From positions 1 through 41,816 of the IMG/VR virus record IMGVR_UViG_3300025141_008636: a DNA stretch of 41,816 nucleotides; one strand, given 5' to 3'. The number at the start of each line of letters is the position of its first letter. Position 1 is the stretch's first letter. A program made the position numbers and the translations under genes. A model generated the notes under the pieces. The model searched no databases, was not told where the DNA came from, and saw nothing but the letters and a program-made list of their open reading frames with translations. Positions 275 through 41,732 of the stretch are shown piece by piece. The DNA comes from a virus.

Positions 275-958
275 TTAATCTATCCATCTTTTATATTGTT
301 TAATTTCTTCTAATGTTAATTGTCCTGTGGCTCTTTTTACTGCCATACACGATACACAAGTACCACATTTACCGTGACCTGTTAGTGGTGTCCTACAATA
401 CCAACATAAAGACAATAAATCTTCTGGTAGGTATGCTATAACTTCTTCTTTTGTCCAATTTTTTAGAGGTGTATAGTAAACTCCACCATTTTCTGTAAAA
501 TTTGGGCTATTTTCTGTATATCTATCATATCTAAAACCCGAAACCATATCCAAAAGTTCTTTACATTTTTTACGATTGTATTTTCGAAATGATTGTGAAC
601 TTTCACTATTATTATATAATTTAATATCACCACCCACAAATCTATCTAATTTATTTGTTTTATTTATTCCCATCACTTTACACCCACCTATAAATGTATA
701 AATCAATCTGTCGTAGGGAATCCAACCATTCATTCCCAAGTCAATGGTTGATTCTGTATATTCAAATTTTCTTTTATTTATCTCAAACCAATTTAAGATA
801 TTGTAGACTGCTATTTTTTCTGACTTATATCTATTTGTTCTATTTATTAAATTAATATGATGAACTTCAATATTATCATCTGTATTATCCAACATCCAAA
901 GTAATGTTGCAGTTGAATCAATTCCACCTGATAACATCAGTAATGTATTTTTCTTCAA
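275..958 (-). CDS. queC: QueC-like PP-loop ATPase (7-cyano-7-deazaguanine synthase family)
   Basis: 227 aa, the usual QueC length. QueC converts 7-carboxy-7-deazaguanine to preQ0 with ATP and ammonia, in the cytosol. Seen: the PP-loop SGGIDSTA at residues 10-17, binding ATP pyrophosphate, and a C-terminal zinc site with C185/C188, C198, C201 and C204 in the QueC pattern C-x(9-12)-C-x2-C-x2-C. The middle of the protein is divergent, so a related PP-loop enzyme (tRNA thiolase or amidotransferase type) is possible. Phages use QueC to make preQ0 for queuosine-type tRNA or for 7-deazaguanine in DNA. A QueF-like gene lies at 39921..40340 in this window. FolE, QueD, QueE and DpdA are not present here. 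Overlaps the upstream gene by 4 nt. Confidence 0.75.
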   Translation of the reverse strand: MKKNTLLMLSGGIDSTATLLWMLDNTDDNIEVHHINLINRTNRYKSEKIAVYNILNWFEINKRKFEYTESTIDLGMNGWIPYDRLIYTFIGGCKVMGINKTNKLDRFVGGDIKLYNNSESSQSFRKYNRKKCKELLDMVSGFRYDRYTENSPNFTENGGVYYTPLKNWTKEEVIAYLPEDLLSLCWYCRTPLTGHGKCGTCVSCMAVKRATGQLTLEEIKQYKRWID

Positions 959-5803: not shown

Positions 5804-6622
5804 TTATTTTACACCAAAATGAGATAATATCCTATCTAATTTAACTTCAAGGGACTGAACTTTAGCATCTAATGTGTTCAGTTGAGCATTATTATTAATA
5901 ACAGGAGGAGCTGGTGGTACAGGTGCCCCTTGATTTGATGCCATTTGATCTCTTCTCTGTTTCATACCTTGAATCATGTTGTCTACTGGCTGTAGGTTAG
6001 GAAGATGTTTATTTTGTTCTTGCCAATCCTTCATTTGTTCACCCCAATCATCAAATTGTTTATCAGTAGTTTGAGGGCCCATGGGTGGTCTTGGTGGATC
6101 TGATTTTGCTCGAGGTCCATCTATAAGTTCATTAGCTGATTTTTGTCTATCTTGCCAATCTTTGGGCATATGCTTATTATCTCTAACCCACTTATTATAT
6201 CCTTTTTTCCAATCAATATTTTCTTTATTGGTTGAGCCGTAAAATGGTGTTTTTGGTGGAGCTCCTGTTGGTCGTGGTGGTTCTGGAATATCTTCTCCAT
6301 CTAACCATTTTTTAACAATCGACTTTTCACGATAACCACAAATACCCTTACCAGTTTCAGCATTGATAAACCAGGGTGTACCACATTGAGTTTTATACTC
6401 ATCTTTAAGTTCTTGATTTAATTTTGCATTATCTGGTTCAGAAATGTCAAGAGTAAGAATATCATAACCTTCATTATTTAGCTCTTCTACCACCGGTTCA
6501 GCTTTCTTACAGAAACCACAACCAGTTGAACAAAAAACGTACCAGGGTGATAATTCTTCTTCTATTTCCTCTGCTTTAGTAGGTTCTTCTACCACCGCCT
6601 CTAATACTTCTTCTTTTGTCAT
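5804..6622 (-). CDS. thioredoxin/glutaredoxin-fold protein with proline-rich tail
   Basis: 272 aa. Residues 26-110 form a thioredoxin-like domain: WYVFCSTGCGFCKKAEPVV with the redox motif CGFC at 35-38, and GTPWF at 81-85 supplying the cis-proline. Extra Cys at 31, 80 and 95 are unusual. Residues 112-235 are proline-rich with repeated DW/KHLP or KHMP elements (NKHMPKDWQDRQK, NKHLPNLQP). The last 30 residues form a predicted coiled coil (LDAKVQSLEVKLDRIL). This suggests a redox domain tethered to an oligomerising scaffold. Strong ribosome site, AGGAGAAAATAAGTT. Confidence 0.8.
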   Translation of the reverse strand: MTKEEVLEAVVEEPTKAEEIEEELSPWYVFCSTGCGFCKKAEPVVEELNNEGYDILTLDISEPDNAKLNQELKDEYKTQCGTPWFINAETGKGICGYREKSIVKKWLDGEDIPEPPRPTGAPPKTPFYGSTNKENIDWKKGYNKWVRDNKHMPKDWQDRQKSANELIDGPRAKSDPPRPPMGPQTTDKQFDDWGEQMKDWQEQNKHLPNLQPVDNMIQGMKQRRDQMASNQGAPVPPAPPVINNNAQLNTLDAKVQSLEVKLDRILSHFGVK

Positions 6623-6641
6623 AACTTATTTTCTCCTATAA

Positions 6642-7067
6642 TTAGATTAAGTTTTGTTTTTTAAATTTATTATACCATTGTTTCCAATTTTTTTGTCCGT
6701 ATTCTTCAGCTTCTCTCTCAAAACTAATTTCTTTACGCTTATTTCTCATCCAACCATCCACGTCTTTTGGATTTTTTGATTGCCAATGAGCTATCTCCAA
6801 CTCATATGAATCTCTTAATTTTCTCCACCCCATCTTCGTGGCCTGAACTGCATGCCATGTTTCATGAAGGACTGTAATTAAAAAATCTTTTTCATTCCTA
6901 ATAACGCCTTTCTTATTTGATATTTCAAGAACTCCTTTACCCAATACATAGTATGCATAATCTTTAATGGGTTTATATATAACTCTGACTTTAACCCTAT
7001 GATCTTTAAGTATAGCGGCTATCATTTGATTTTTTTCAGCTTCCCTTATAAACTCATTCAGAATCAT
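6642..7067 (-). CDS. HExxH zinc metallopeptidase-like protein
   Basis: 141 aa. Contains HETWH at residues 68-72 (FLITVLHETWHAVQ), the zincin zinc site, and a downstream acidic helix FEREAEEYGQ at 116-125 that could give the third ligand, as in gluzincin-like or SprT/IrrE-type minimal peptidases. No signal peptide, so it would act in the cytoplasm. The substrate is unknown; phage zincins of this size may cut host regulators or phage structural proteins. Overlaps the upstream gene by 14 nt. Confidence 0.8.
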   Translation of the reverse strand: MILNEFIREAEKNQMIAAILKDHRVKVRVIYKPIKDYAYYVLGKGVLEISNKKGVIRNEKDFLITVLHETWHAVQATKMGWRKLRDSYELEIAHWQSKNPKDVDGWMRNKRKEISFEREAEEYGQKNWKQWYNKFKKQNLI

Positions 7068-7335
7068 CTTCTTTATCGTCTTTGGAAGTTTTAGGTAATG
7101 GTGGTATGTTCTTTATAACTTTTTTCCAAGTATCACCCTTAAATACCTCATCTAAAAATGGACTACTTTCATTGATCTGTGTTATACTTCCGCTTAATTC
7201 GGACAATTCCGATAAATCTAAATTCTCATATTCTTCAACAACATTAGATGCTATATCTAACATATTATTTACCATATCTTGAAGTACTTTTTCTTGCTCT
7301 TTAGTCATCAAATCTATTTTTTTCTTCTTAGCCAC
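7054..7335 (-). CDS. unknown helical protein
   Basis: 93 aa with a GTG start at 7335, supported by AGGAAG 8 nt upstream. Basic first eight residues (MAKKKKID), a long acidic helix (VLQDMVNNMLDIASNVVEEY), a DLSELSELSGS linker and an acidic tail, SKDDKEDDSE. No motif recognised. Overlaps both neighbours (8 and 14 nt), implying coupled translation. Confidence 0.65.
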   Translation of the reverse strand: MAKKKKIDLMTKEQEKVLQDMVNNMLDIASNVVEEYENLDLSELSELSGSITQINESSPFLDEVFKGDTWKKVIKNIPPLPKTSKDDKEDDSE

Positions 7336-7513
7336 TTATATCTTCCTTATTTACCCACCATATTTTACCAAGATCATCTACCACCCTAATGTTACCTCTG
7401 ACGGGATTACCGCCGAGTGTTATCTCATCTATCTTTACAATAGTTCCAACATATAACATACCATTTATGCTTGGTATATCTTTTATAATTTTTACTTTGT
7501 CACCTATTTTCAT
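7328..7513 (-). CDS. small SH3/KOW-like beta-barrel protein
   Basis: 61 aa: MKIGDKVKIIKD, then MLYVGTIVKIDEI, ...IRVVDDLGKIWWVNKEDI. The pattern GDxVxI...GxxxxVxxI...DxxGxxWWV matches small SH3-like or KOW barrels seen in phage microproteins. Function unknown. Starts within a 4-nt overlap of the HNH-like gene. Confidence 0.65.
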   Translation of the reverse strand: MKIGDKVKIIKDIPSINGMLYVGTIVKIDEITLGGNPVRGNIRVVDDLGKIWWVNKEDISG

Positions 7514-8016
7514 TTTACGAATTTCTTTGAATTGTGAAAAAAACCATTATGTACAAAATAACAATTCGGGCATAATAATCTCATATTATCCAAACTCTTA
7601 TTTTCTGACTCCCCATCAATGAAATCAATCGTTAATGGGATTTTACCATCTGTAACTCTACCTTCATTCCAACCACAACTGTAACACTCTTCTTTAGCAT
7701 ATCCATCTAAAACCATTCTCTTCTTTAACATTGGTAATGTATAATTGCATTTTCTTTTACCCTCAAATATATCTTCTAAATTTATTTTATAGGTAGCCCA
7801 ACCTTTTTTAACACCAAAACCTGATTGATTTAAATGTTGATCAAACAAGTTATAATACTTAGCCCATTTCTTGTAAGTATTATAAGATACCTTCAACCAC
7901 CTAGCCGCTTCCATATTTGATTTAGAATGTTTTTGAGATTCCTCAATCATACCTTTAGTTAAAACAAATCTCTTACCTGGAATACGAACTGGTCTAATGA
8001 AAGACCTATCAGACAT
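7510..8016 (-). CDS. HTH plus degenerate HNH-fold protein
   Basis: 168 aa from the ATG at 8016, which forms a TAATG overlap with the upstream stop. Residues about 27-56 look like a helix-turn-helix (SNMEAARWLKVSYNTYKKWA). Residues 111-153 follow the HNH zinc template: C111/C114, LTIDFIDG at 128-135, N144, C149/C152. In active HNH enzymes the motif reads LxxDHIDG...CPNCH; here the first His is F132 and the last is Y153. The fold and zinc Cys are kept but both catalytic His are gone, so a DNA-binding protein derived from a nuclease is more likely than an active endonuclease. Confidence 0.75.
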   Translation of the reverse strand: MSDRSFIRPVRIPGKRFVLTKGMIEESQKHSKSNMEAARWLKVSYNTYKKWAKYYNLFDQHLNQSGFGVKKGWATYKINLEDIFEGKRKCNYTLPMLKKRMVLDGYAKEECYSCGWNEGRVTDGKIPLTIDFIDGESENKSLDNMRLLCPNCYFVHNGFFHNSKKFVK

Positions 8017-8249
8017 TATGTTTTCTGCCATACTACTGTGTTCGGATTAAAATTATGATTTGTCTCTGCCTTTAAATTTCTACCCTGTGTTGGACTTATT
8101 TTACGCCAGGGTATGTTAACACCCGGTTGATTTGTTTGCCAAAACAAATCATTTACATCAAGGTCTGAAAATTTGAACTTTTCAAAATCTTCACTTAAAT
8201 TTCCAGGTGGATTGTATCTATCATTTGCTTGATTGTTTGTTGGTGTCAT
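8016..8249 (-). CDS. unknown phage protein
   Basis: 77 aa. Pattern KFSDLDVNDLFWQ...INIPWRKIS-like, then GRNLKAE...NPNTVVW. It resembles a small phage domain in which a short loop L-F-W is followed by (Y/W)RKI and N(L/A)K, often met in phage hypothetical genes (from memory; function unknown). Start ATG with weak upstream AGG. One of a string of small genes under promoter D. Confidence 0.65.
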   Translation of the reverse strand: MTPTNNQANDRYNPPGNLSEDFEKFKFSDLDVNDLFWQTNQPGVNIPWRKISPTQGRNLKAETNHNFNPNTVVWQKT

Positions 8250-8252
8250 AAC

Positions 8253-8420
8253 TTATACCTCCATCCAAGTTCCGGCTTGTTCTACGATGCCGGATATTGC
8301 TTCAAACTCCTGTTGAACTGAGTTAAATTGACCACTAGCTTCTAATTTATCATACATTGAATCAAGTGCATTCTTGATTACCTTTATTTGTTCATAACCT
8401 TCTTTACTTATCGCTGACAT
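8253..8420 (-). CDS. 55-aa helical protein
   Basis: ATG at 8420 preceded by AGGAGGACAAAGAAA, a strong ribosome site lying inside the upstream gene (17-nt overlap). The open frame reaches back to 8474, but that part is the overlap. The product begins MSAISKEGYEQIKVIKNALD and ends IVEQAGTWMEV; all helical, no motif recognised. Confidence 0.65.
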   Translation of the reverse strand: MSAISKEGYEQIKVIKNALDSMYDKLEASGQFNSVQQEFEAISGIVEQAGTWMEV

Positions 8421-8634
8421 TTTCTTTGTCCTCCTGTAACAGTTGTTTTTCTGGTTTCTCTTCAGCCACATCATCTACCTGATAATGTTTAACTAAAAAT
8501 TCATCTATGTTTACCTTTAACCGATTTAATTCAGTTAAGGCCAATTCTTTTACAAAGTCATCTTCCTTATTATCAAGAACCGTTGTCATTAGTTTTTGTA
8601 TATAAGGACCTAATTTATCGCCCGTATTACTCAT
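8404..8634 (-). CDS. small acidic helical protein
   Basis: 76 aa. Helices LGPYIQKLMTTVLDN and FVKELALTELNRLKVNIDEF, then an acidic tail (VAEEKPEKQLLQEDKEN). Overlaps the upstream gene by 8 nt. No motif recognised. Confidence 0.65.
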   Translation of the reverse strand: MSNTGDKLGPYIQKLMTTVLDNKEDDFVKELALTELNRLKVNIDEFLVKHYQVDDVAEEKPEKQLLQEDKENVSDK

Positions 8635-22190: not shown

Positions 22191-22777
22191 TTAAATACAT
22201 CCATTTTTGTTAAGTCTGGCCAATCTGTAACAATCCATTTTCTCGGTTTAGTTTCTATAGCAGTTGATAATTTATCCAACCCAATCTGTGCTATTTCTGG
22301 ATTCATATAATAGTGATAACCCATAGTTTGTATGTTCTGTTCTCTCCAAGGTACATCTGGTAATCTACCATCATACGACATTTTCTTTAATTCATCCATA
22401 GCTACATGATTTCCAGTTAAAATCATACCACCCCTACCCAAACTTAAATGTTTTTGAAACTGAAAACTCAAACACATAAAAGTTCCTTTTATATAGCTAT
22501 TTTCTTTCCACAATACAGATGCATCTATAATATTTGTACCACCTATCCAATAATACTCCTGCCAATCTTCATCCTTCCATCTCAATTCAATTCCAAGTTT
22601 GTTTGCTAAAAATGGAATAGATATATAAGTTCTTTTGGGAACTGTAATTGATTTAACATTTTGATACCTCAAACATAACTCAATTGCGTGAGTACAACAG
22701 TCAACAGCAACAGCATAAGGTGCACCATAAAACTTAGATATCTTCTTTTCAAAATCACTTACTGTTTTAAAACTCAT
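22187..22777 (-). CDS. half-length DegT-type PLP protein
   Basis: 196 aa against about 370-400 for the family. It keeps the N-terminal start (FEKKISKFYGAPYAVAVDCC), an Asp likely to contact PLP (IIDAS, D85) and the Schiff-base Lys109 in SFQFQKHLSLGRGGMIL. Almost the whole C-terminal small domain is missing. The reading frame is intact, flanked by 4-nt overlaps, so it is not an obvious pseudogene. It might be a compact aminotransferase, a dehydratase-like relative or a regulatory partner of the full DegT at 18419..19576. Confidence 0.8.
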   Translation of the reverse strand: MSFKTVSDFEKKISKFYGAPYAVAVDCCTHAIELCLRYQNVKSITVPKRTYISIPFLANKLGIELRWKDEDWQEYYWIGGTNIIDASVLWKENSYIKGTFMCLSFQFQKHLSLGRGGMILTGNHVAMDELKKMSYDGRLPDVPWREQNIQTMGYHYYMNPEIAQIGLDKLSTAIETKPRKWIVTDWPDLTKMDVFK

Positions 22778-23451
22778 AACTTTGTATTCCTTAATAATAC
22801 ATTTCCAAAATTTCCCATAAAATTATAAATACCTATGTATTCAAAACCAGTTAATTTATCTTTAATGTCTTCAACATTAAAACAATTTTCATATAATTTT
22901 TTATCACCAACTCCATTAAATTCAATATATAAATAGTTAACCTTTTCATTTATAGTATTTAACCCACCGTTTAAAAATTCTTCTTCTCCCCCATTTACAT
23001 CAACCCACATAATATCAATTAGATTGATATCTTTATCTAATATCCATGTATCCAATCTTGTAGATTTTACTTTATTTAATTTAAATTGCACATCAGGGAA
23101 CACACTCAAATGGTTCTTTGGTTTTCTGACTGAACCTGACGCTGACCAAGTTTTTTCATAATCATATCGATCGTGTCTGCGAGTTTCACTTTCACTTTGA
23201 TAAAACTCAATTTCTCCATCTATATTAGATAATGCGGTTTCTACTAAATTGATTGGTTTATCTCCAACATACTTTTTAAAAATGTCTATTGATCTTTTAT
23301 CTGCTTCAAATGCATATATACTTGGATTTTCAAATAACTTTAAAAAATCTAAAGAATCACTCCCATCAAATGTCCCAACATCAAATATTGTTGGGTTTTC
23401 TTTTTTTATATTTTCTTTAAAAAAATTCTTATCAATATCTTTTTCCATCAT
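22774..23451 (-). CDS. FkbM-type SAM-dependent methyltransferase
   Basis: About 225 aa. PTIFDVGTFDGSDSLDFLKL is the SAM motif I; IYAFEADKRS is motif II; SNIDGEIEFY and STRLDTWI, then MWVDVNGGEEEFL, are FkbM landmarks. FkbM enzymes O-methylate sugars or polyketides, here presumably a sugar hydroxyl. The start is uncertain: the frame reaches 23466, but GGGG lies just before the ATGs at 23451 and 23448. Confidence 0.85.
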   Translation of the reverse strand: MMEKDIDKNFFKENIKKENPTIFDVGTFDGSDSLDFLKLFENPSIYAFEADKRSIDIFKKYVGDKPINLVETALSNIDGEIEFYQSESETRRHDRYDYEKTWSASGSVRKPKNHLSVFPDVQFKLNKVKSTRLDTWILDKDINLIDIMWVDVNGGEEEFLNGGLNTINEKVNYLYIEFNGVGDKKLYENCFNVEDIKDKLTGFEYIGIYNFMGNFGNVLLRNTKL

Positions 23452-24370
23452 GTCCCCAAATTTCATAATCTGATTCTACCCTTATTGAATTCCATTTTGG
23501 AAGTCTAATATCACTTTCATTTCTATTATAATATCTTCTTCCCCACCATCTATCTGGAACAAATACATCTCCATCTGTTTTACTCAACCAAGCTCCCCAC
23601 CAACTAAAAGTACTACAAGACATAACAAAATTATCACAATAAGTTATTAAACATAAATCTAAATACTCAAGTTTAATTTTACTATCTTTATGAGCACTGA
23701 ATTTTGAATAAATAACATCTTCACCTCTTAAATTCTCTTTACACCATTCTATATCATCTGAAATTATCAAAAATATATTATCATCACTTTTAAGTTTTTT
23801 CATCATTTTATTATACCAACCCGCATTTGGTAAAACTAAACATCCACCTAACTGACCATTATGAATATGATCTTTTCCTATTGTATCACCACGCCTAACA
23901 TGAATTCCTGTTATTATTTTTTCATTATATTTGTTTTTTAACTCATCAAAATAATTTTTAGTTGTTTCTTCTATTTCTTTTTTAAATTGAAATTCCTTTT
24001 TAAGTTCATTTTCAAATCCTTCAAAATATTTATACGATTGAAAAGATCCCTTAATGTTAGTGTAATCATTTATATCAAATACATCTGGAATAAACTTAGA
24101 ATAATCTTTACCATGTTCAAATGTATTATTAAAATGAATTTCAGATTTAGGTAATAATTTACCAGTTACATTAAAACATTCATATATTTGTAAAAACATA
24201 TAATCTCTTTTACCAATTACCGGATTGGGTGAAGAATCTACAACCTTAAAATTGTCAGATGGTAATGCAAAATCATATCCATTCTTTTTTGCAACCACAT
24301 ACAAAACACCATACTGAAAAAGTTGATTACAAAGTCTACCATAATGTCCTATATTTTCAAATGTTATCAT
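23432..24370 (-). CDS. GT11 alpha-1,2-fucosyltransferase family
   Basis: 312 aa. Family motifs are clear: GRLCNQLFQYG at 11-21, GSFQSYKYFE at 108-117, GIHVRRGD at 155-162 (GDP-fucose binding) and CSTFSWWGAWL near 255. GT11 moves fucose from GDP-L-fucose to a galactose or similar. GDP-fucose needs GMD (present, 20464..21438) and a GMER/WcaG reductase; the epimerase at 10514 could supply this, or the host does. 4-nt overlap with the upstream gene. Confidence 0.9.
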   Translation of the reverse strand: MITFENIGHYGRLCNQLFQYGVLYVVAKKNGYDFALPSDNFKVVDSSPNPVIGKRDYMFLQIYECFNVTGKLLPKSEIHFNNTFEHGKDYSKFIPDVFDINDYTNIKGSFQSYKYFEGFENELKKEFQFKKEIEETTKNYFDELKNKYNEKIITGIHVRRGDTIGKDHIHNGQLGGCLVLPNAGWYNKMMKKLKSDDNIFLIISDDIEWCKENLRGEDVIYSKFSAHKDSKIKLEYLDLCLITYCDNFVMSCSTFSWWGAWLSKTDGDVFVPDRWWGRRYYNRNESDIRLPKWNSIRVESDYEIWGHDGKRY

Positions 24371-30312: not shown

Positions 30313-31089
30313 TTATATAAATGAAAAGATACCTCGAACATGAGAATTAACCCAATCGTATCTTTTTATAAAATATCTTATTTGATACAAACTCATCCAA
30401 ATAAAATTATCATTGACTATCTCTATTGGTTTATCAATCTCAATTAACATATTTAAATTTCTTTTATTATACAATCTACCACCATCTTCACATAACCAAT
30501 TACTAAAATGAACTTTATGTTCCCCCGTATTCAAAAAGTAATTTAGATAGTGTGGTACATATCCCTTATGTGCTGCACTCATATTACTAAGAGTGGCTTG
30601 TAAAGTTGGACTAAATTGTACTAAGTTTACATTACCTGGTTCAAATTTGGCTTCTAATAGATAATGTGGAATTCCATCAAATCTTTTTCTTATGATTCCT
30701 AATATACCACCATCTGTTGATAAACCGTCTTCCAATAGATTATCTTTTGCAACTTGTTCTATGATTGGTTGAGACCAACCACCCTCAGCCTCTCGTGTCT
30801 TTGATTTAACCTCAACCCCCTTCACAGAAAAGAACTCTCCACTTTCGTGATAAATCTTATCAGATTTAACTATCCAACCCTCACACTCATTTAATGGTAT
30901 TTCTTTAACAGTCATACTTGAACTATCTACTTGTTTCTTATACCATTTTTTAATATAATCAATATCATGAAATGACGACCAGTCTTTTAAAGATTCAAAA
31001 TTGAACTCCAATATATCATCAGTAGTATTGTGCTCTAATTTATTAATGGAGTTTAAATAAAAATTAAGTTCTTCTTTATATTTATACAC
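30313..31089 (-). CDS. NDP-hexose 2,3-dehydratase family, single-module form
   Basis: 258 aa with a GTG start at 31089 (AGAGG upstream). The family (TylX3, EvaA, SpnO) removes the C2 hydroxyl of NDP-4-keto-6-deoxyglucose to give a 3,4-diketo-2,6-dideoxy sugar. Seen: GGWSQPIIEQ at 103-112, LLEAKFEPGNVNLVQFSPTL, QATLSN at 164-169, and EDGGRLYNKRN at 201-211. Known enzymes are about 450-480 aa with two tandem copies of this module; here only one is present, so it must work as a homodimer, pair with something else, or be altered in function. No gene for another module is seen. Confidence 0.88.
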   Translation of the reverse strand: MYKYKEELNFYLNSINKLEHNTTDDILEFNFESLKDWSSFHDIDYIKKWYKKQVDSSSMTVKEIPLNECEGWIVKSDKIYHESGEFFSVKGVEVKSKTREAEGGWSQPIIEQVAKDNLLEDGLSTDGGILGIIRKRFDGIPHYLLEAKFEPGNVNLVQFSPTLQATLSNMSAAHKGYVPHYLNYFLNTGEHKVHFSNWLCEDGGRLYNKRNLNMLIEIDKPIEIVNDNFIWMSLYQIRYFIKRYDWVNSHVRGIFSFI

Positions 31090-32251
31090 AACGAACCTCT
31101 GGAACGTGAGTTATATACTGACCTTTAAATTCTGTTTCGTTCTCACGAATATAATCTATAAAGTTCCACGCTCCAAGAAATGCATAATCATAATCATTAA
31201 TATTAATTGAATTTCTATCTACTACTGGTATGTGTGTACCAGGTTGTAATAAATTCTGTTTATCAGGTGTTGTGTCTGTAATACACTCCATTAATGACTC
31301 ATCTATACCACAATAATTGAAAACAATAGAAGATTTACAAGTTGCTCCAATACTTAAAACCTTTTTACCTTCTGATTTGGCTTTATATAATAATTCCAAC
31401 AAATCATCTTTTGACTTATCAACTCTATCAGCAAACTTTTTATAAGTTTCAAAATCATTCAAACCAAATTCTTCTTCTCGTTTTAAATTATCTCTAACTG
31501 AATCTTCTGATTCAATATTGCTTGCAAGTCTAGCAAATATTCTATTAGATCCACCATGAACTTGTAGGTTATCCACTCTAAATAATTCTAAACCGTATAG
31601 TTTCAATAAATTATTTAAAGACGTAACAGAAAACAAATGTGGATGCTCATCATATATTTGATCATAAGAATTTCTCTGTAAAACTGATAGACAAGATGGA
31701 TCTTCAAATACAAATATACCTCTACCTGATAATGTATTTTTAACAGCTTTAAATACACCATCTAAATCATTAATGTGAGAAATACAATTCGCAGAATAAA
31801 TTAAATCAAATTTACCATGATTATCTCTAATAGTTTTTGATAATTTAGTTGTCCAATAATCACCGTAAGTTTTATAACTCAATTCCTCATTCGTATATTT
31901 TGCAAAATTTCCACAAGGTTCTACACATATTGACTTATCTTTATCAAAATTCTTTATAAAAGTTCCGTCATTTGAACCTATTTCTAATACCTTATTTGGG
32001 TTAAATTCATTTTGTAACATTTTAGCAGTATTTTTAAAATGTTCTATCATGGGAACAGATTTAGATGTCCAATATGGATATTCAGCATTAAAATTTAATT
32101 CTGGTTTAACAAATTCTTTCATTGAAACTAACTTTGTATCTTCATCAAATACAACTTTCAAATTATAAAAAAATTCATTATCAATTTGTTCTTTGTTCAA
32201 AAATTTATTCCCCAAAGGTTGTCTACCTAAATCTAAAAATTCTCTCTTCAT
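31082..32251 (-). CDS. sugar C-methyltransferase (TylC3/NovU type)
   Basis: 389 aa, near the family's 400-415. SAM site KVLEIGSNDGTFI at 87-99; VEPCGNFAKYT at 110-120; YDEHPHLFS, corresponding to the family's YHEHxxYFS; C-terminal GTHIPVVDRNS, the family's PGTHIPI. These enzymes add a methyl group to C3 of 4-keto-2,6-dideoxy NDP-sugars (mycarose, noviose-type and others). The N-terminal zinc-binding CxxC usually found in the family is absent: the start reads LDLGRQPLGNKFL. It directly precedes the 2,3-dehydratase (8-nt overlap), which strongly supports a branched-chain deoxysugar. Confidence 0.88.
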   Translation of the reverse strand: MKREFLDLGRQPLGNKFLNKEQIDNEFFYNLKVVFDEDTKLVSMKEFVKPELNFNAEYPYWTSKSVPMIEHFKNTAKMLQNEFNPNKVLEIGSNDGTFIKNFDKDKSICVEPCGNFAKYTNEELSYKTYGDYWTTKLSKTIRDNHGKFDLIYSANCISHINDLDGVFKAVKNTLSGRGIFVFEDPSCLSVLQRNSYDQIYDEHPHLFSVTSLNNLLKLYGLELFRVDNLQVHGGSNRIFARLASNIESEDSVRDNLKREEEFGLNDFETYKKFADRVDKSKDDLLELLYKAKSEGKKVLSIGATCKSSIVFNYCGIDESLMECITDTTPDKQNLLQPGTHIPVVDRNSININDYDYAFLGAWNFIDYIRENETEFKGQYITHVPEVRCV

Positions 32252-39920: not shown

Positions 39921-40340
39921 CTACCATGTATCTTCTCTCCATTCTTTATATTCTTCTTTACCACCGAGAGCTTCCCAATCATTATCAATTGTAAGTCTTG
40001 ATGAAATTCCACCCCTTGGATTACAATCCAAGACTAATCTTAATCTTTGAGGAGTATAAATTTCCATCATATGGTCATAAATTTGATTTAATAATCTTTC
40101 ATAAGATATAACCACATCTCTATATTGTTGTAAATACAATTTCAATGATTTTAATTCAACAACCTTACCATTTGGATACATTAAAATATATAATGTAGCA
40201 AAATCTGGCTGATCATAAACACCTAAAAATGTAATCTCTGGTTGTTTAATTTTTACCTCATATGGTTTTACCTTTTCTGGATTAGGTAGTCCCTTTAACA
40301 TTGACGAATCTATATCACTATAAAGTTTCTTTTTTAACAT
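39921..40340 (-). CDS. queF: QueF-like protein lacking the catalytic cysteine
   Basis: 139 aa, T-fold. QueF reduces preQ0 to preQ1 with NADPH, through a Cys thioimide. Clear family blocks: QPDFATLYI at 44-52, VELKSLKLYLQQYR at 61-74, Glu81, and NPRGGISSRL at 107-116. At the place of the catalytic Cys (Cys55 of B. subtilis QueF, SLCPKTGQPD), this protein has LGVYDQPD with Gly40. The His next to the substrate Glu is Tyr80. So the fold and the purine-binding Glu are kept, but the nucleophile is missing. It may bind or modify deazaguanine in another way, or be inactive. QueC-like partner at 275..958. Confidence 0.85.
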   Translation of the reverse strand: MLKKKLYSDIDSSMLKGLPNPEKVKPYEVKIKQPEITFLGVYDQPDFATLYILMYPNGKVVELKSLKLYLQQYRDVVISYERLLNQIYDHMMEIYTPQRLRLVLDCNPRGGISSRLTIDNDWEALGGKEEYKEWREDTW

Positions 40341-40446
40341 TTTCGACTACCTCTTTTATTCTTCTATATAATACCATCTTTTTTAATTCCGGTACTCTTG
40401 GTTTCGGAAATTTTAAATTTGGAAATAATTCCAATTGTTTATTCAT
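40318..40446 (-). CDS. 42-aa basic microprotein
   Basis: ATG at 40446 overlaps the upstream stop (ATGA). Starts MNKQLELFPNLKFPKPRVPE with three prolines; the rest (MVLYRRIKEVVENVKKETL) is basic and helical. Its end overlaps the QueF-like gene by 23 nt. Small but well placed between two coupled genes; function unknown. Confidence 0.6.
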   Translation of the reverse strand: MNKQLELFPNLKFPKPRVPELKKMVLYRRIKEVVENVKKETL

Positions 40447-41444: not shown

Positions 41445-41732
41445 TTAACCCTCTAAAATTGATAATACTTCGTTTACACTCATTATAACATGCTCACCAT
41501 ACTCGTGAGTCTGTGCATGTTTGTTATATAATATTGTATCACCTACATTAACTACAACCGGAATAAGTGTTCCATTAGCAGAATACATACCTTTACCTAC
41601 TGATACTACCTCACCTTCCATTAATTTTCCTTGATCTACTGTATCTGGTAAAAGAATTCCACTTTCAGTAACTTCTTCTTCTTTAGTTGTTGGTTTTACA
41701 ACGATTTTATCGTTTACTGGTTTTAACTTCAT
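41445..41732 (-). CDS. groES: GroES-like co-chaperonin
   Basis: 95 aa, standard GroES length. KLKPVNDKIVVKPT strand; mobile loop around residues 16-33 with the hydrophobic ILL (ESGILLPD at 23-30) that binds GroEL; MEGEVVSVGKG and VGDTILYNKH as the barrel turns. Phage GroES proteins (T4 gp31 type) pair with host GroEL to fold capsid proteins. No GroEL in the window. Upstream gene overlaps in ATGA. Confidence 0.92.
   Translation of the reverse strand: MKLKPVNDKIVVKPTTKEEEVTESGILLPDTVDQGKLMEGEVVSVGKGMYSANGTLIPVVVNVGDTILYNKHAQTHEYGEHVIMSVNEVLSILEG

Follow-up and report, generated by a model that had tools for sequence, protein, structure and literature searches.

A QueF homologue without the catalytic cysteine in phages and Bacteroidota, and its likely place in methyl-folate and methionine metabolism

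QueF reduces the nitrile of preQ0 by way of a covalent thioimide formed on a cysteine. The window, i.e., the whole 41,816-nucleotide stretch of viral DNA analyzed here (IMG/VR record IMGVR_UViG_3300025141_008636), encodes a member of the QueF family in which this cysteine is missing. We refer to the Cys-less QueF-family gene as queF*. The locus raises the question of whether its product is a QueF at all and, if so, what reaction a QueF scaffold could serve without its nucleophile.

Fold, active site and family of the queF* product

The window ORF is a genuine T-fold homologue of QueF that lacks the thioimide cysteine. The gene and the codons discussed below are located as follows.

39921–40340 (−): queF*, Cys-less QueF-family protein of 139 aa (PF14489, 2.8e-20; TIGR03139, 92 bits; T-fold model; clade support 100/100)
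40203–40223 (−): codons G40-V41-Y42-D43-Q44-P45-D46, the catalytic loop, lacking the nucleophile Cys; Asp46 (Asp62 in QueF) is kept (QueF alignment)
40134–40157 (−): codons E62-LKSLKL-Y69, the intact QueF motif (motif as in PMC5372742; loose form in 30/30 Cys-less sequences)
40098–40106 (−): codons S79-Y80-E81, in place of F-H-E of QueF; Glu81 corresponds to the base-anchoring Glu97 of B. subtilis QueF (alignment)
40023–40025 (−): codon C106, variable within the family (other members have F, S, T or E)

Pfam matches of the protein were confined to QueF families, and its NCBIfam score lies above the TIGR03139 'preQ(1) synthase' cut-off of 86.9 bits, whereas PHROGs labels it 'GTP cyclohydrolase' (phrog_5949). 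The AlphaFold model adopted the T-fold with pLDDT of 83.7 and pTM of 0.80; the model is a monomer, and the T-fold active site sits between subunits. A Foldseek search with this model placed B. subtilis QueF on top (4fgc, 2.3e-10), followed by FolE and archaeal QueF-L, and the nearest solved structures are those of B. subtilis QueF (4fgc/4f8b). The Pfam search gave no PF02219 match, and the modeled T-fold is not a (beta-alpha)8 barrel.

In the alignment to 4fgc/4f8b, Cys55 of B. subtilis QueF is replaced by Gly40, in a loop shorter by one residue, and Phe95-His96-Glu97 by Ser79-Tyr80-Glu81. Asp62, which is among the active-site residues of QueF (PMC5372742), is retained as Asp46. The preliminary description of this DNA had read Gly40 in place of the nucleophile Cys, Tyr80 in place of His, and a retained Glu81, and the structure-based alignment bears out all three. 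It had also held that a reductase could not use the known thioimide route and that the protein may serve another reaction, which the replacement of the Cys by Gly40 supports. The QueF motif, E(S/L)K(S/A)hK(L/Y)(Y/F/W), said to hold the NADPH-binding residues (PMC5372742), is intact in the window protein as ELKSLKLY. A kept NADPH motif together with a lost covalent nucleophile suggests a reductase with a non-nitrile substrate.

The Cys was absent, and the SYER motif present, in all 16 close IMG/VR relatives (68–88% identity) and in all 24 more distant viral relatives (50–62% identity), i.e., in 40/40 viral members, which answers whether phage relatives also lack the Cys. The Cys-less SYER form was also found in 20 bacterial genomes, most of them Bacteroidota, plus one MAG each from Neomarinimicrobiota, Kangiellaceae and Actinobacteria. 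In a tree of 30 Cys-less and 21 canonical sequences, the former made up one side of a branch with support 100/100; the bootstrap of this tree is not fully settled and the stem of the Cys-less branch is very long. Within this set, SYE was present in 30/30 Cys-less sequences and FHE in 18/21 canonical ones, while the loose QueF motif was found in every Cys-less sequence. Gly40 and Asp46 are invariant across the Cys-less alignment and the C-terminal SSRLTIDSDW..GG region is conserved; the alignment contains no invariant His.

Cys106 was considered as a substitute nucleophile and rejected: other members have F, S, T or E at this position, which rules it out as the catalytic residue of the family. 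Sequencing error and gene decay were likewise excluded, because 60 members (40 viral and 20 bacterial) share the Cys-less form and dN/dS of the window gene, calculated against four relatives, is ~0.1. The automatic names 'preQ(1) synthase' (TIGR03139) and 'GTP cyclohydrolase' (phrog_5949) are probably wrong for the Cys-less family.

Gene neighborhoods of queF* and the distribution of MetF

In three phages, metE follows queF* with an overlapping start and, where complete, encodes both MetE domains. Most other close phage relatives have queF* flanked by genes for adenine phosphoribosyltransferase (Apt), MetK and an MTA/SAH nucleosidase-type protein (Pfs), in the order Apt-MetK-queF*-Pfs; the arrangement MetK-queF*-MetE also occurs among phage relatives, and in one locus, L015, Apt, Pfs, MetK, queF* and MetE are all found together. 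A different MetK, of 385 aa, is encoded directly upstream of queF* in L238, which suggests that MetK became linked to queF* on more than one occasion. Users of SAM are also present, namely two DNA methylases in one phage and a Dam-type methylase adjoining queF* in L229. The window record itself contains no MetE, MetK, Pfs or Apt, and 23/24 of the more distant phage members have none of these genes nearby. The Rfam search, SAM riboswitch included, returned no match in the window or in the four phage loci tested.

Other features of the viral loci were noted in passing. A small ORF just upstream of queF* starts with 'QLELFP', similar to a sliding-clamp binding motif, and adjoins a clamp-loader subunit gene (window 40318–40446 (−); L001 5601–5768; L017 9844–10011). 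The window also carries an extended array of sugar-nucleotide and glycosyltransferase genes (9624–36221 (−)) with two SAM-dependent methyltransferases (22774–23466 and 31082–32251), as well as a GroES-type co-chaperonin (41445–41732 (−)); the relative L018 has GroES and a GroEL-like ORF (6570–8526).

The bacterial neighbors and SAM riboswitches are evidence for a role in methionine metabolism. In four genomes, queF* lies between a metB/metY-type gene, for which the profiles did not single out the exact enzyme, and the homoserine dehydrogenase gene (hom); in a fifth, it adjoins homoserine dehydrogenase. Two bacterial genomes have metH beside queF*, and another has a metH fragment three genes away. 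In the Neomarinimicrobiota MAG (L025), queF* overlaps metE. Upstream in the same region (L025 6537–9584) is a frameshifted metK remnant, followed by the intact queF* and metE with GC of 0.29 vs 0.38 for the locus, a pattern that fits the transfer of a phage-like cassette whose queF* and metE survived undamaged. Overall, a methionine gene was found within 6 kb at 9/19 bacterial queF* loci vs 0/71 canonical queF loci (Fisher 1.3e-7). The SAM riboswitch (RF00162) heads five queF*-containing operons, standing directly in front of queF* in L194, and precedes a divergent metH in L188 and L189.

From this gene context, it was proposed before testing that queF* may encode a methylene-THF reductase, with the prediction that queF* genomes should be without MetF. 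MetF, scored by PF02219, was missing from 10/20 queF* genomes vs 2/60 genomes without queF* (Fisher 5.6e-6), the 60 controls having been picked by handle number, not at random; with the five sister genomes G020–G024 counted as one, the Fisher value was 8e-4. The MetF-less queF* genomes are G019–G024, G031, G032, G073 and G076, mostly MAGs whose completeness is not stated, and G031 is also without QueA. Ten genomes carry both MetF and queF*. In G031 and G076, which lack MetF, queF* adjoins a full-length metH; these two genomes should need methyl-THF. A methionine synthase was not located in G019–G024. We consider it very likely that queF* has a role in methyl-folate/methionine metabolism.

Proposed reaction and its alternatives

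As to the step itself, we favor an NADPH-dependent 5,10-methylene-tetrahydrofolate reductase built on the QueF scaffold, which would replace or back up MetF; we infer the reaction, the substrate and the roles of the residues. Glu81 would hold the pterin ring in place, as its counterpart in QueF does with preQ0. Asp46 is the likely general acid, which would protonate N10, so that the imidazolidine ring opens and the 5-iminium forms. The QueF motif would hold NADPH, and hydride would pass directly to the 5-iminium, yielding 5-methyl-THF for MetE/MetH. With Phe95/His96 gone and the loop shortened, there could be space for the p-aminobenzoyl-glutamate tail. The thioimide cysteine would be dispensable in this reaction because no nitrile is attacked. 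In phages, the 5-methyl-THF would supply a SAM cycle encoded by the virus (MetE, MetK, Pfs, Apt). Protonation to the 5-iminium followed by hydride transfer is the course described for methylene-tetrahydropterin reductases, and in the flavin-free Mfr hydride reaches methylene-THF straight from NAD(P)H (PMC11094777; PMC8765232). The proposed queF* enzyme is probably flavin-free as well. Our literature search found no paper that connects QueF with methionine or with methylene-THF reductase. With somewhat less assurance, we lean towards a broader picture: a T-fold family of methylene-tetrahydrofolate reductases, unrelated to the known barrels, flavin-free and NADPH-using, which arose from QueF by loss of the covalent cysteine and which stands in place of MetF in some Bacteroidota and forms part of a virus-encoded SAM cycle in phages.

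The linkage to metE, metH, metK, pfs, metB/metY-type genes and hom would also fit another step of methionine/SAM metabolism. Dihydrofolate reduction, for example, likewise moves a hydride from NADPH onto a pterin C=N, and the conversion of S-ribosylhomocysteine to homocysteine (the LuxS step) is the sole step of the activated-methyl cycle unseen in the phage clusters, L015 having no recognized LuxS among the genes examined. We nevertheless regard such a different step as unlikely, since MetF was the gene predicted to be missing and was missing in ten of the 20 queF* genomes. LuxS-type chemistry uses a metal site, and the lack of an invariant His in the family alignment speaks against that variant in particular. 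It is also conceivable, since the catalytic Cys and His are gone, that the protein kept its fold as a non-catalytic binder of folate, a base or NADPH, i.e., as a regulator or carrier. The retained NADPH motif and Asp, the dN/dS of ~0.1 and the missing MetF in half of the queF* genomes make this very improbable.

An action on a 7-deazaguanine (preQ0, CDG or a relative), either for phage DNA modification or in queuosine metabolism, appears improbable too, e.g., as a CDG decarboxylase like DpdL, for which Cui et al. (2023) reportedly proposed that activity. The QueF fold and the kept base-binding Glu are in favor of such an action, and two observations point weakly in the same direction: a QueC-like PP-loop protein of 227 aa in the window (275–958 (−); phrog_1550, 3.1e-20), with the QueC-like cysteine cluster kept, and a bimodular canonical QueF with its Cys, directly upstream of queF* on the same phage contig (L236 4422–5357). 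The QueC-like protein had no homologue in the other viral loci examined, and it was the sole exception to the absence of FolE, QueC, QueD, QueE and TGT of the tested types from 649 kb of viral loci. Moreover, there was no TGT/DpdA-type protein (PF01702) in seven viral records searched, the window included, and neither QueD nor a radical-SAM protein was encoded by the window or by the first 13 viral relatives. The carrier Bacteroidota gave no full-length QueC match, weak partial matches inside longer proteins not being counted, and PTPS genes at their inspected loci stand beside folE or alone and were thus read as pterin genes, not queD. In six Bacteroidota genomes (G019–G024), queF* is the sole QueF homologue and occurs together with TGT, QueA and a YhhQ-type transporter. 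We rejected the idea that it fills the QueF slot of queuosine salvage there: QueA is present in 396/399 genomes of the order of G020, so the pattern of TGT, QueA and YhhQ without QueC is background. As only 21 of these genomes have a QueF-type match to the family profile, import of preQ1 or queuine seems common in this order. The phage QueFs tied to dPreQ1 DNA, those of Dp-1 and HVTV-1 (PMC6884629), are more distant, sharing 37% and 31% identity with the window protein, respectively. Two functions had been suggested from the sequence, binding of preQ0 for phage DNA modification and blocking of host queuosine synthesis. Neither is supported, given the viral records searched for TGT/DpdA, QueD and radical-SAM proteins; the methionine gene neighbors and the MetF pattern indicate methionine/methyl-folate metabolism instead.

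Comparison with known systems

Unimodular QueF (B. subtilis; PF14489, TIGR03139), an NADPH-dependent preQ0 nitrile reductase, is one of the closest known systems. The queF* product shares with it the T-fold, the NADPH-binding QueF motif and the active-site Glu and Asp, with 33–37% identity in the structure match. It differs in lacking Cys55 and Phe95/His96, in its shorter loop and in the conserved C-terminal SSRLTIDSDW..GG region; the genomic context differs as well, with methionine/SAM genes for queF* and queuosine for QueF. If our proposal is true, a covalent nitrile reductase can turn into a simple hydride-transfer enzyme by loss of its nucleophile, and the 'preQ(1) synthase' annotation, assigned above the TIGR03139 cut-off, would have to be corrected on phages and MAGs. 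QueF-L, the archaeal archaeosine synthase, is likewise a QueF-derived T-fold protein with a different reaction; unlike the queF* family, it keeps the thioimide Cys (PMC5485725).

With MetF/MTHFR (PF02219) and the flavin-free Mfr, queF* would have the reaction in common, and Mfr, too, takes its hydride from NAD(P)H with no flavin in between. MetF/MTHFR and Mfr are, however, (beta-alpha)8 barrels (PMC11094777), whereas the queF* product is a T-fold protein unrelated to them in sequence. A T-fold replacement of MetF, if true, would explain methionine synthesis in some MetF-less bacteria.

Lake Baikal phages of methylotrophs carry MetK and an MTA/SAH nucleosidase on their genomes, and no QueF-type gene is mentioned in their description (PMC7678222). 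In the phages studied here, queF* lies between the MetK and nucleosidase genes, and in some of them metE comes after queF*. If the proposed function is correct, queF* would add a methyl-folate step to the SAM-cycle genes already known in phages.
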